Assembly: GCF_014243445.1 (NCBI RefSeq)
Contig: NZ_JACLQD010000002.1
Location: forward strand, 558,001-622,000
Reading direction: 5' to 3'
DNA from: Paragemmobacter straminiformis
Lineage (GTDB): Bacteria; Pseudomonadota; Alphaproteobacteria; Rhodobacterales; Rhodobacteraceae
Length of the DNA stretch: 64,000 nucleotides
Below are positions 57,990 to 61,513 of the stretch, one piece after another (the stretch's first letter is position 1; each line of letters opens with the position of its first letter). The notes under the pieces were generated by a model. It saw only the letters and a list, made by a program, of their open reading frames with translations. It was not told the DNA's origin and did not search any database. A program made the position numbers and the translations under genes.

Positions 57990-58883
57990 ATGGACTGGGA
58001 CAAGCTGAGGATTTTCCATGCGGTGGCGGACAAGGGATCGCTGACCCATGCGGGCGAGGTGTTGCACCTGTCGCAATCGGCGGTCAGCCGGCAGATCCGC
58101 GCGCTTGAGGAAAGCCTGAATGTCACGCTGTTCCACCGCCACGCGCGGGGGCTGATCCTGACCGAACAGGGCGAATTGCTGTTCGATGCCACGCAACAGA
58201 TGGTCAAGCGGCTCGATGCCACCGCCGCCCGCATCCGCGACAGCGAGGACGAGGTTTTCGGTGAATTGCGGGTGACCACGACCACGGGCTTCGGCACGCT
58301 GTGGCTGGCCCCGCGCCTGACGGCGCTTTACCAGAAATATCCGGGGCTGAAGATCGACCTGATGCTGGAAGAGCGCGTGCTTGACCTGCCGATGCGCGAG
58401 GCGGATGTGGCGATCCGGATGAAAGAGCCGTCGCAGGCCGACCTGATCCGCAAGCGGCTGATGAACATCAAGATGCGGCTTTACGCGACACCGGAATATC
58501 TGGCGGAACATGGCACGCCGCTGACGATGGCCGAATTCAACAGCCACCGCCTGATCTGCCAGCACCCCGGCACGGCGCAGGTCGCGGCGGGGGCGACGCT
58601 GGTGCAGCAGCTGATGTCGAACGACATTCCGTCGATGCTGACGGTGAACAACTACTTCGGCGTGCTGCAAGGGGTGATAAACCATATCGGCATCGGGGTT
58701 CTGCCCGATTACATCACCGAGGACCTGCCGCATCTGGTCAGGGTGCTGCCCGAGGTGGAAAGCGGCGAGGTGCCGGTGTTCCTTGCCTACCCAGAGGAGC
58801 TGCGCCATTCCAAGCGGGTCGCGGCGTTCCGCGAGTTCGTGACCGAGGAAATCTTCAAATACCGCAAGCGCGAACAGGCCTGA
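57990..58883 (+). CDS. LysR-family transcriptional regulator
   Basis: A 297-residue LysR regulator. The winged helix is MDWDKLRIFHAVADKGSLTHAGEVLHLSQSAVSRQIRALEESL. The effector domain starts near residue 90 with ELRVTTTTGFGTLWLAPRL. It is divergent from murI, with a 245-bp gap. There is no metabolic gene next to it on its own strand, so the target could be itself, murI or distant genes. Unusually, the sequence around its stop (GCCTGAGAA) is duplicated 12 bp later. Confidence 0.9.
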   Translation: MDWDKLRIFHAVADKGSLTHAGEVLHLSQSAVSRQIRALEESLNVTLFHRHARGLILTEQGELLFDATQQMVKRLDATAARIRDSEDEVFGELRVTTTTGFGTLWLAPRLTALYQKYPGLKIDLMLEERVLDLPMREADVAIRMKEPSQADLIRKRLMNIKMRLYATPEYLAEHGTPLTMAEFNSHRLICQHPGTAQVAAGATLVQQLMSNDIPSMLTVNNYFGVLQGVINHIGIGVLPDYITEDLPHLVRVLPEVESGEVPVFLAYPEELRHSKRVAAFREFVTEEIFKYRKREQA

Positions 58884-59009
58884 GAAGGCGCCTGAGAACG
58901 GGCAACGCGGCAAGCCCGAGGGTGGCCCGAGGGTGGCCCAGACGGCCACGCGAAACAAGCCATGCAAGAAATGCATAGCGGCAATGCTGCGTTCGCAGCA
59001 TGGTTTGTC

Positions 59010-59038
59010 TTGCGGCACCGCGCCCCAGACCCTAAATG
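59010..59038 (+). promoter_or_regulatory. Sigma70-type promoter for small-RNA candidate 2
   Basis: TTGCGG (59010-59015) and TAAATG (59033-59038) are separated by 17 bp. A hairpin ATGCTGC-GTTC-GCAGCAT lies just upstream (58984-59001). Transcription would start near 59045. Confidence 0.5.
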
Positions 59039-59044
59039 CATCGG

Positions 59045-59124
59045 CGAGGCGGTGATTGAGGTTTCTCTCACCACCTCATACCTCCCTGTTGGACTTGGCC
59101 GAGCGGAACCTCGGCCTTTTTTTT
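59045..59124 (+). ncRNA. Candidate small RNA 2 with CCTC/CCTCC motifs (about 80 nt)
   Basis: Downstream of a promoter-like pair, the RNA would fold a hairpin GGTGA / TCACC extended by GAG / CTC around a GTTT loop (59051-59072). Next is an unpaired stretch containing ACCTC and ACCTCCC (59073-59086), then an intrinsic terminator (59097-59124). Exposed CCTCC sequences are complementary to ribosome-binding sites and are the hallmark of anti-Shine-Dalgarno small RNAs in alphaproteobacteria. No coding frame fits. It lies between the LysR gene and purL, with 229 bp before the purL start, so it is probably independent. Assignment to a named family would need a covariance search. Confidence 0.62.
59097..59124 (+). 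terminator. Intrinsic terminator of small-RNA candidate 2
   Basis: GGCCGAG-CGGAAC-CTCGGCC forms a 7-bp stem followed by eight consecutive T. It is the clearest intrinsic terminator in the window. Confidence 0.92.
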
Positions 59125-59272
59125 GCTTTCGCCCCAACTATCGCCACCGCTGCACGCCAAAGCGACAGGGCGGGGCCGGGGCGACCAAAATCAGGGCAGA
59201 GATGAAAGACCGCGCCTGCGGGTTCTGGCGGGGACGATTCGGCTTTGCAGAAAATTCGGCGGCAAGGCCGCA

Positions 59273-59299
59273 GGGAAAGGCTTGGCCCCTTTCCCTTTT
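59273..59299 (+). promoter_or_regulatory. Terminator-like hairpin in the purL leader
   Basis: GGGAAAGG-CTTGGCC-CCTTTCCC is an 8-bp perfect stem followed by TTTT, 54 bp before the purL start. It could end upstream transcripts or attenuate purL. The rest of the 229 bp between the small RNA and purL shows no open frame or repeat that I can support. Confidence 0.5.
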
Positions 59300-59353
59300 G
59301 GGGGGTTGACGGTAAAGCGCCTGCAAGGACGCCGTCTTGCAAGGGATGCAACC

Positions 59354-61513
59354 ATGACCGAACCCGCCATCACACCGGAACTGATCGCATCCCACGGGCT
59401 GAAGCCCGACGAATACCAGCGGATCCTGCAGATCATCGGGCGCGCGCCGACCTTTACCGAGCTTGGCATCTTCTCGGCCATGTGGAACGAGCATTGTTCC
59501 TATAAGTCGTCGAAGAAATGGCTGCGCACGCTGCCGACCACGGGGCCGCAGGTGATTTGCGGGCCGGGCGAGAATGCGGGGGTTGTCGATATCGGCGACG
59601 GTCAGGCGGTGATCTTCAAGATGGAGAGCCACAACCACCCCAGCTACATCGAACCGCATCAGGGGGCGGCGACGGGTGTGGGCGGCATCTTGCGCGATGT
59701 GTTCACGATGGGCGCGCGGCCGATCGCTGCGATGAACTCGTTGTCTTTCGGGGTGCCGGAACACCCCAAGACCAGCCATCTGGTGAAAGGCGTCGTCGAA
59801 GGCGTGGGCAGCTATGGCAATGCCTTTGGCGTGCCGACGGTCGGGGGCGAAGTGCGCTTTCACCGCAGCTACAACGGCAACTGCCTTGTGAACGCATTCG
59901 CCGCCGGATTGGCCGATGCGGACAAGATCTTCTATTCGGTCGCCAGCGGCGTCGGCATGCCGGTCGTCTACCTTGGCGCCAAGACGGGGCGCGACGGGGT
60001 GGGCGGTGCCACGATGGCATCGGCCGAATTCGACGACACGATCGAGGAAAAGCGCCCCACCGTGCAGGTCGGCGACCCCTTTACCGAAAAGCGTCTGCTC
60101 GAAGCCTGCCTTGAGCTGATGGCCTCGGGCGCGGTGATTTCGATTCAGGACATGGGGGCTGCGGGTCTTACCTGTTCGGCGGTCGAGATGGGCGACAAGG
60201 GCGGCTTGGGCATCAAGCTGCAATTGAATGACGTGCCGCAGCGCGAGGCGAACATGACCGCCTATGAAATGATGCTGTCGGAAAGCCAGGAGCGGATGCT
60301 CATGGTGCTGAAGCCGGAGCTCGAGGATGTGGCGCGGGCGATTTTCGTCAAATGGGACCTCGATTTCGCCATCGTGGGCGAGACGATCCCCGAGGACCGC
60401 TTCCTGATCCTGCATGGAACCGAGGTCAAAGCCGACCTGCCGCTGTCGAAACTGTCGTCGAGCGCGCCGGAATATGACCGCCCCTGGGTGGAAACGCCCG
60501 CCGCCGCACCGCTGGCCGATGTTCCGGCGATTGGCGCGATTGCGGGGCTGCGGGCGCTGATCGGGTCGCCCAGCTACGCGCAGAAGGCATGGGTCTACGA
60601 GCAGTATGACAGCATGGTCATGGCCGATACCGTGGTGGCCCCCGGCGCGGGTGCGGGCGTGGTGCGGGTGCATGGCACGGGCAAGGCGCTGGCCTTCACC
60701 AGTGACGTGACGCCGCGCTATGTGAAGGCCAACCCCTTCGAGGGCGGCAAGCAGGCCGTTGCGGAAGCCTATCGCAACCTCTGCGCCGTGGGGGCGAGGC
60801 CTTTGGCGACGACCGACAACCTGAACTTCGGCAACCCCGAAAAGCCCGAGATCATGGGGCAGTTCGTGGGTGCGATCAAAGGCATCGGGGCTGCGGTCGC
60901 GGCGCTGGATATGCCCATCGTGTCGGGCAACGTGTCGCTTTACAACGAAACCGACGGGTCGGGCATTCTGCCGACGCCGACGATCGGCGCGGTGGGGATT
61001 TTGTCGTCGCTGGACGAGCTGATCGCGGGGCGTCCGGTTGCGGGCGATGCGGCGGTGCTGATCGGTGTGACCGAGGGGCATCTGGGCCAATCGGCGGTGC
61101 TGGCCGAGATGTTCGGGATCGAGGCGGGCGATGCGCCGCGCATCGATCTGGCGGCCGAGCGCAGGCATGGCGAATTCCTGCGGGCGAACCGTGCGCTGGT
61201 GCGGGCGGCGACCGATCTGGCCGATGGCGGCCTTGGGCTGGCGGCCTTTGAAATGGCCGAAGGCGCGGGGCTGGGTGTCACGCTTCCCGTTTCGGAAGCG
61301 GGCTTCCTGTTCGGCGAGGATCAGGCGCGCTATCTGGTGGCCTGTTCGGCGGCAAATGCCGAAAAGCTGGTGGCGGCAGGCAAGGCGGCAGGTGTGCCCG
61401 TTGCGGTCGTGGGCAGCTTTGGCGGCGAGGTCGTGGCCTTCGGGTCCGAGGCCGCGTCTTTGGCGGAGCTGTCGAACCTTTATCGCAGCGCATTCGCCAA
61501 GGCGGTGGCGTGA
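59354..61513 (+). CDS. purL: Phosphoribosylformylglycinamidine synthase subunit PurL
   Basis: A 719-residue small-type PurL, which makes formylglycinamidine ribonucleotide using ATP and ammonia supplied by PurQ with Pur[16 protein letters not shown] (residues about 40-54) and [25 protein letters not shown] hold the active site. [19 protein letters not shown] and the C-terminal AIR-synthase-like half ([17 protein letters not shown]) complete it. The ATG at 59354 is the clear family start; a longer frame from 59123 crosses the leader. A GNAT gene overlaps its stop. Confidence 0.97.

Follow-up and report, generated by a model that had tools for sequence, protein, structure and literature searches.

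A SorY-type small RNA gene between a LysR-type regulator gene and purL in Paragemmobacter straminiformis, with a candidate PhaR-type operator at its promoter

A conserved RNA gene between a LysR-type regulator gene and purL

The window, a 64,000-nucleotide stretch of the P. straminiformis genome, carries a LysR-type regulator gene at 57996-58883 (plus strand; PF00126, PF03466) and purL at 59354-61513 (plus strand; NF002290 and TIGR01736 over cut-off). Between these lies a gene for a SorY-type small RNA of about 81 nt at 59044-59124 on the plus strand, with a promoter and an 18-bp palindrome ahead of it. Aligning the RNA with R. sphaeroides SorY, whose published start is 1,632,642, put the 5′ end at 59044. 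The folded RNA (59044-59124; −31.5 kcal/mol, z −3.09, as good in 1 of 200 shuffles) begins with a 5′ hairpin and ends in a terminator, with an open core between the two. The 5′ stem-loop occupies 59046-59077 (plus strand) and is followed at 59080-59096 (plus strand) by a single-stranded core, ACCUCCCUGUUGGACUU (DNA ACCTCCCTGTTGGACTT), which includes the anti-Shine-Dalgarno motif CCUCCC as presumed seed, with unpaired probabilities across these six bases of 0.7, 0.7, 0.7, 0.7, 0.3 and 0.6. The intrinsic terminator at 59097-59124 (plus strand), identified by a terminator scan, the fold and covariation, comprises a 7-bp stem at 59097-59116 and a T8 run up to 59124. An initial annotation of this DNA had described an RNA of about 80 nt, which the +1 at 59044 turns into about 81 nt, with two exposed motifs, CCTC and CCTCC. 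The exposed CCUCC stretch is borne out, as ACCUCCC at 59080-59086, and is the only open motif of the two; the CCTC at 59074-59077 pairs with GAGG at 59046-59049 in the 5′ stem.

Across 42 distinct orthologs the core and the CTTG of the −35 element were invariant (the core in places nearly so), an invariance of the core that is partly selected for, as these rows were gathered by the core motif. For covariation we used the 33 similar orthologs (alignment A1), leaving out nine with divergent 5′ parts (L022, L025, L026, L028, L029, L031, L039, L043 and L083); L030 (from G031), which lacks the core motif, belongs to neither set. Among the 33, 95.9% of cells in the 5′ hairpin and terminator were paired. 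Changes on both sides occurred at 9 of 18 pairs, amounting to 35 cells compared with 11.5 in shuffles (0 of 500 shuffles as high), and in the outer helix of the 5′ stem 7 of 8 pairs had changed on both sides. Fold and covariation thus uphold the 5′ stem-loop and strong terminator of the initial annotation. A chance juxtaposition of promoter and terminator producing no functional RNA, in favour of which we found nothing, is refuted by the conservation and covariation of the ortholog alignment, and its probability is practically nil; at the level of comparative sequence analysis, the RNA gene at 59044-59124 is confirmed.

The position of the RNA, 230 nt before purL and on the same strand, would also suit a purL leader or attenuator. 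The RNA has its own promoter and terminator, however, and in several genera purL lies 1-2.6 kb off or outside the fetched flank while the LysR gene still adjoins the RNA, so that we regard a leader as very improbable. The earlier description of an RNA standing alone before purL without a DUF1127 gene was right about the latter; what regularly adjoins the RNA is the LysR gene on its upstream side, with purL often farther away.

The RNA is a SorY ortholog below the Rfam cut-off

An Rfam scan of the 64-kb window at gathering thresholds returned only a tRNA. Below threshold, the SorY model (RF02651) matches the RNA end to end over 59047-59124 (55.2 bits, E 2.6e-8; gathering score 111 bits), and the SorX model (RF02784) matches the same place with 38 bits (E 1.4e-5). 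At E 0.001, SorY matches were found in 53 of 61 family genomes and in 0 of 14 control genomes, with the gathering score being reached only in G093 (115 bits). We took G093 to be, presumably, R. sphaeroides 2.4.1, as both of its RNA coordinates agree with those published: its SorY match begins at 1,632,645, 3 nt past the reported start of 1,632,642, and its SorX match lies at 2,598,225, 1 nt past the reported RNase E cleavage site at 2,598,224 (PMC6238624). Because this presumed R. sphaeroides genome is the only one among the 61 to reach it, the SorY cut-off is near species level. RF02651 appears under-seeded, its cut-off hiding 52 of the 53 matching sample genomes.

The order LysR-sRNA-purL-bolA-grx is common to this locus and the SorY locus of G093. 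More broadly, the LysR gene was present in 57 of the 61 family genomes (E 1e-90), and in 50 of the 53 SorY-positive genomes it preceded the best SorY match by less than 600 bp, the exceptions being G064, whose matches are possibly SorX-type, G070 and G076. Three genomes with no match in the SorY search (G022, G026 and G035) also have an RNA with CCTCCCT and a terminator behind the LysR gene; in G032, G071 and G101, a SorY-trained model found no such RNA in the fetched stretch. In L244 (G022), the LysR gene adjoining the SorY-like RNA has an in-frame TGA.

With R. sphaeroides SorY the RNA shares the gene order, the core, the hairpin and terminator, and an equally spaced CTTG...CCTAAAT promoter; it differs in a diverged 5′ hairpin sequence (55.2 of 111 bits), in a weaker predicted pairing with takP, and in a better upstream dyad (14 compared with 12 of 16 matches). 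Synteny and sequence show it to be an ortholog of SorY, if not an Rfam-grade member. The RNA itself is therefore not novel, SorY being already known from R. sphaeroides, and the novelty first proposed for it largely falls with the SorY match, below gathering score as that match is. Kinship with CcsR-type or cuckoo RNAs, likewise suggested at first because an exposed CCUCC is common to them, did not hold up either: the nearest relatives found by Rfam were SorY and SorX, the neighbours are LysR and PurL genes with no DUF1127 gene alongside, and synteny with SorY disfavours CcsR, leaving such an identity only a very slight chance. An identity as StsR was set aside on Rfam's match to SorY. A fourth SorY match in the same genome (C9:624285, 31 bits) was rejected as a terminator hairpin without the core.

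The promoter elements resemble RpoH-type promoters

The −35 element CTTGCGG (59009-59015, plus strand) contains the CTTG invariant in the 42 orthologs, and the −10 element CCTAAAT (59031-59037, plus strand) stands at the distance that R. sphaeroides SorY shows in the alignment, with a CCTAAAT-like −10 mostly kept across the orthologs. The promoter elements originally annotated, TTGCGG at 59010-59015 and TAAATG at 59033-59038 with 17 nt between them, are all present; a σ70 reading of them is not sustained, as a σ70 scan of 58800-59400 found no promoter. In RpoHI/RpoHII promoters, TTG at the −35 is reported to be the part that is conserved and, as mutations show, required (PMC3441632), and R. 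sphaeroides SorY is reported to be RpoHI/RpoHII-dependent and bound by Hfq (PMC5036791), with induction by singlet oxygen also described in that species. The elements here look RpoH-type rather than σ70-type in sequence.

A PhaR-like dyad lies at fixed distance from the −35 element

Seven base pairs upstream of the −35 lies an 18-bp perfect palindrome at 58984-59001, ATGCTGCG-TT-CGCAGCAT, of PhaR-like form (CTGCN4GCAG); it also came up in the terminator scan, as a hairpin resembling a terminator. The corresponding N4 dyad, ATGCTGCA-NN-TGCAGCAT (ATGCTGCR-NN-YGCAGCAT), occurred with at least 11 of 16 matches upstream of 25 of the 42 orthologs, always exactly 7 bp before CTTG, and was absent at that threshold upstream of 17. 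Another count, over 41 orthologs, placed a dyad at offset 7 in 26, 24 of them with at least 11 matches. In the P. straminiformis genome the sole zero-mismatch place of the degenerate pattern ATGYTGCRNNYGCRGCAT is 58984-59001, and among 12 genomes scanned a zero-mismatch place fell at sorY in seven, while G023, G034 and G076 have one elsewhere.

Dyads with the same half-sites occur in the phaP-phaR region. In 15 of 16 PhaR loci, ATGCTGCR-N-YGCAGCAT occurs with at least 14 of 16 matches in a stretch that lies 560-1000 bp ahead of phaR, the N4 version scoring at most 11; that the phaP start falls within this stretch was taken from two loci read, with the phasin-like phaP named by eye. The half-site consensus ATGCTGCA is common to the sorY and phaP dyads, with one extra spacer base in those of sorY. 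The fifth base is the exception: among the 52 sorY half-sites, a set in which one place figures twice, 28 have T there and 22 have C. For R. sphaeroides PhaR, the published site has the form CTGCN3GCAG; in S. meliloti, gel shifts have demonstrated binding of PhaR to the promoter of mmgR (PMC12542648). The sorY dyad thus resembles the PhaR operators of phaP and mmgR in its consensus half-site (ATGCTGCR/YGCAGCAT) and in its place beside the −35, and differs from them in having two bases rather than one between the YGCR halves, so that the window has CTGCN4GCAG and not the published R. sphaeroides consensus.

The neighbouring gene offers another candidate regulator for this site. LysR boxes have the form T-N11-A, which the dyad also fits, and in 50 of the 53 SorY-positive genomes the gene immediately preceding the RNA encodes LysR; the dyad might accordingly be a LysR site, with LysR and not PhaR controlling the small RNA. 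Against this, the dyads at sorY and phaP agree in their consensus half-site, and in two orthologs (L028 and L042) the dyad at this offset has the N3 spacing of PhaR sites. Furthermore, a dyad with at least 12 of 16 matches preceded sorY in 23 of 42 cases compared with 0 of 57 within 200 bp before lysR (the 57 loci include some places fetched twice, and scores of 11 do occur there), and in G076 a dyad with one mismatch stands at sorY with the LysR gene 174 kb away. We consider control by LysR unlikely, if a serious contender, and infer that 58984-59001 is a PhaR-type operator.

G076 and G063 have similar dyads ahead of bdhA-like genes. Within the window, two weaker PhaR-like dyads (13 and 12 of 16 matches) lie at 2136-2176 on the minus strand, just upstream of the 3-hydroxybutyrate dehydrogenase gene bdhA (TIGR01963 over cut-off).

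Predicted pairing with takP and phaR leaders

We predicted duplexes between a 20-nt open part of the core and mRNA leaders, comparing each energy with those for 44 leaders from the window; this background, taken from one genome for all species and applied to several genes tried, is a rough one. The takP mRNA is a SorY target in R. sphaeroides (PMC6238624, PMC9670543), and the P. straminiformis genome encodes a takP ortholog that shares 86.6% identity with its G093 counterpart across 365 aa (best solved match 2hzk). For R. sphaeroides, the core paired at the takP Shine-Dalgarno sequence with −24.1 kcal/mol, and none of the 44 background leaders was as good. The P. straminiformis takP leader gave −15.0 kcal/mol with 12 of 44 as good, which is no better than background, and among 14 takP leaders two beat all 44, two beat all but one and ten were unremarkable (9 to 27 as good). 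Pairing with takP at GGGAGG in P. straminiformis is plausible in this model. Of 28 genomes selected because they carry sorY, 8 gave no takP match at E 1e-100, and takP is therefore unlikely to be the sole or ancestral target. Duplexes with the whole 57-nt 5′ part were discarded as long and meaningless and replaced by those of the 20-nt part (own takP, −31.1 kcal/mol, equalled by 124 of 300 shuffles; R. sphaeroides takP, −45.0 kcal/mol, by 12 of 300).

The phaR leader of P. straminiformis scored −19.9 kcal/mol, a value equalled by 0 of 44 background leaders and 4 of 200 shuffles, and that of R. sphaeroides −26.4 kcal/mol, equalled by 0 of 44 leaders and 0 of 200 shuffles. Across 16 genomes, five phaR leaders beat all 44 background leaders and the other 11 were matched by 4 to 34 of them. 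For these two species the model predicts better pairing of the core with the phaR leader than with that of takP. Other leaders of the same genome gave −15.2 kcal/mol for purL (11 of 44 as good), −12.6 for bdhA (27 of 44) and −11.9 for phaP (30 of 44); R. sphaeroides phaP gave −11.8 (30 of 44).

A search of eight genomes for the seed complement TCCAACAGGGAGG with at most one mismatch returned 18 zero-mismatch places, which are the SorY- and SorX-type genes themselves, and 12 one-mismatch places that were inspected by eye, three of which (TCCGACAGGGAGG) resemble further copies of the core.

Direct pairing of core and leader has been published for SisA, an alpha-r8 RNA (PMC12559287). In P. straminiformis, an RpoH-type stress promoter would drive the SorY ortholog, the 5′ hairpin and terminator would keep ACCUCCCUGUUGGACUU single-stranded, and the core, together with Hfq, would pair with purine-rich ribosome-binding sites and thereby lower translation or stability of the target, a mode of action published for takP in R. 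sphaeroides. The SorY RNA thus probably blocks ribosome-binding sites. With a PhaR-like operator beside the −35, its output would probably also be tuned by PHB or carbon status, as for alpha-r8 MmgR. Taken jointly, we consider it likely that the RNA is a SorY ortholog acting by Hfq-assisted anti-Shine-Dalgarno pairing, whose promoter is also tuned by PHB and carbon status through the PhaR-like operator.

Relation to SorX and the alpha-r8 RNAs

SorX (RF02784) has in common with the RNA ACCUCCCUGUUGGAC, UGGCCG and the terminator, and differs in being a cleavage product of an OmpR-type gene's 3′ UTR, whereas the RNA at 59044-59124 has its own promoter; the SorX score here is 38 bits against a gathering score of 46.6. 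The P. straminiformis genome contains SorX over cut-off elsewhere (84.5 bits; G000:C10:237160, L080 5161-5235), in tandem with a second SorX-type RNA just under cut-off (42.1 of 46.6 bits; C10:237318, L080 5319-5384). Both tandem RNAs lie downstream of an OmpR-type regulator gene, named by eye.

The alpha-r8 RNAs (MmgR of S. meliloti, SisA-D of C. crescentus; Rfam suhB, RF00519) likewise combine a hairpin, single-stranded CCUCCCU, GACUU and a terminator, and the RNA at 59044-59124 has their layout of weak hairpin, single-stranded anti-Shine-Dalgarno stretch and terminator. At the promoters, the half-sites of the sorY dyad match those of the PhaR-type sites of alpha-r8, with a spacer one base longer. 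For alpha-r8, a conserved 10-mer, UUUCCUCCCU, and an adjacent N-formylglutamate amidohydrolase gene in most species have been reported (PMC12559287). In P. straminiformis, by contrast, the 10-mer is replaced by AUACCUCCCU (8 of 10), the neighbours are the LysR gene and purL, and the RF00519 score is 16.6 bits against a gathering score of 41.

The alpha-r8 16-mer TTTCCTCCCTAGACTT, searched for as an exact string, occurred in at least 120 stretches, 80 of which were listed, mostly Hyphomicrobiales by title. Over these 80 we ran a model (R1) built from the 33 SorY orthologs only. Among the matches listed, R1 found 84 of 89 16-mer sites, and its first 49 matches comprised 48 such sites and one CCTCCCTGGACTT variant; these loci were picked by a string with CCTCCCT and GACTT as in SorY, so that the result is not independent of the core. 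The PhaR motif YGCRNYGCR was present in 58 of 79 unique alpha-r8 upstream stretches among the matches listed; comparison stretches had it in 1 of 79 cases when taken farther upstream and in 10 of 79 when taken downstream, and shuffled sequences had it in 3%.

The suhB model scored over cut-off in 8 of the 61 family genomes; it matched 2 of the 14 controls, one of them over cut-off. By eye, the suhB RNA in L249 and L250 lies between a DNA polymerase IV gene and an N-formylglutamate amidohydrolase gene. As G033, G019 and G099 have both RNAs, suhB RNA and SorY are separate loci. In G035 the LysR-linked RNA stays below the cut-off of both models that it matches, with 44.9 bits for SorX and 32.7 bits for suhB; that of G026 reads CCTCCCTGTCTAGACTT and is intermediate between the SorY and alpha-r8 types.

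From these sequence comparisons we infer that SorY is a PHB-linked cousin of the alpha-r8 RNAs, through common descent or a shared module. MmgR and SorY are both named in PMC9670543, in unrelated passages of the text. A wider proposal, which we advance tentatively and hold to be rather doubtful, is that SorY, SorX and alpha-r8 form one ancient alphaproteobacterial anti-Shine-Dalgarno clan with promoters tied to PhaR, in which Rhodobacteraceae SorY would combine a PhaR input with an RpoH promoter and close the loop via the phaR ribosome-binding site. Were this clan to exist, storage-polymer state and oxidative stress would set one and the same RNA. If PhaR binds the promoter, SorY in photo-oxidative stress and MmgR/Sis in PHB storage and carbon starvation would become one question, and there would be a possible explanation for genomes that have SorY but no close takP. 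The RNA being a known stress regulator of another genus, it is the candidate operator for PhaR and the proposed kinship with alpha-r8 that merit testing.

Further candidate RNAs near PHB genes

A second candidate small RNA in the window, at 2230-2380 on the minus strand, precedes bdhA and comprises a hairpin, TGCCTCAATAACTGAAC and a strong terminator, with CTTGG...TATATAA; a counterpart in another genus (L193) shares 85% identity with it over 132 nt, and it matches SorX weakly (24.1 bits, below cut-off). In the phaP-phaR intergenic region of the same genome (L257 1686-1753, minus strand), a hairpin with CCTCCCTGTC and a terminator follows the phasin-like gene and gives a weak SorX match of 27.1 bits; it is possibly a 3′-UTR-derived small RNA inside the PHB regulon. 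In G008 and G076, a CCTCCCTGTCGGA stretch occurs 120-140 bp upstream of the phaR match.
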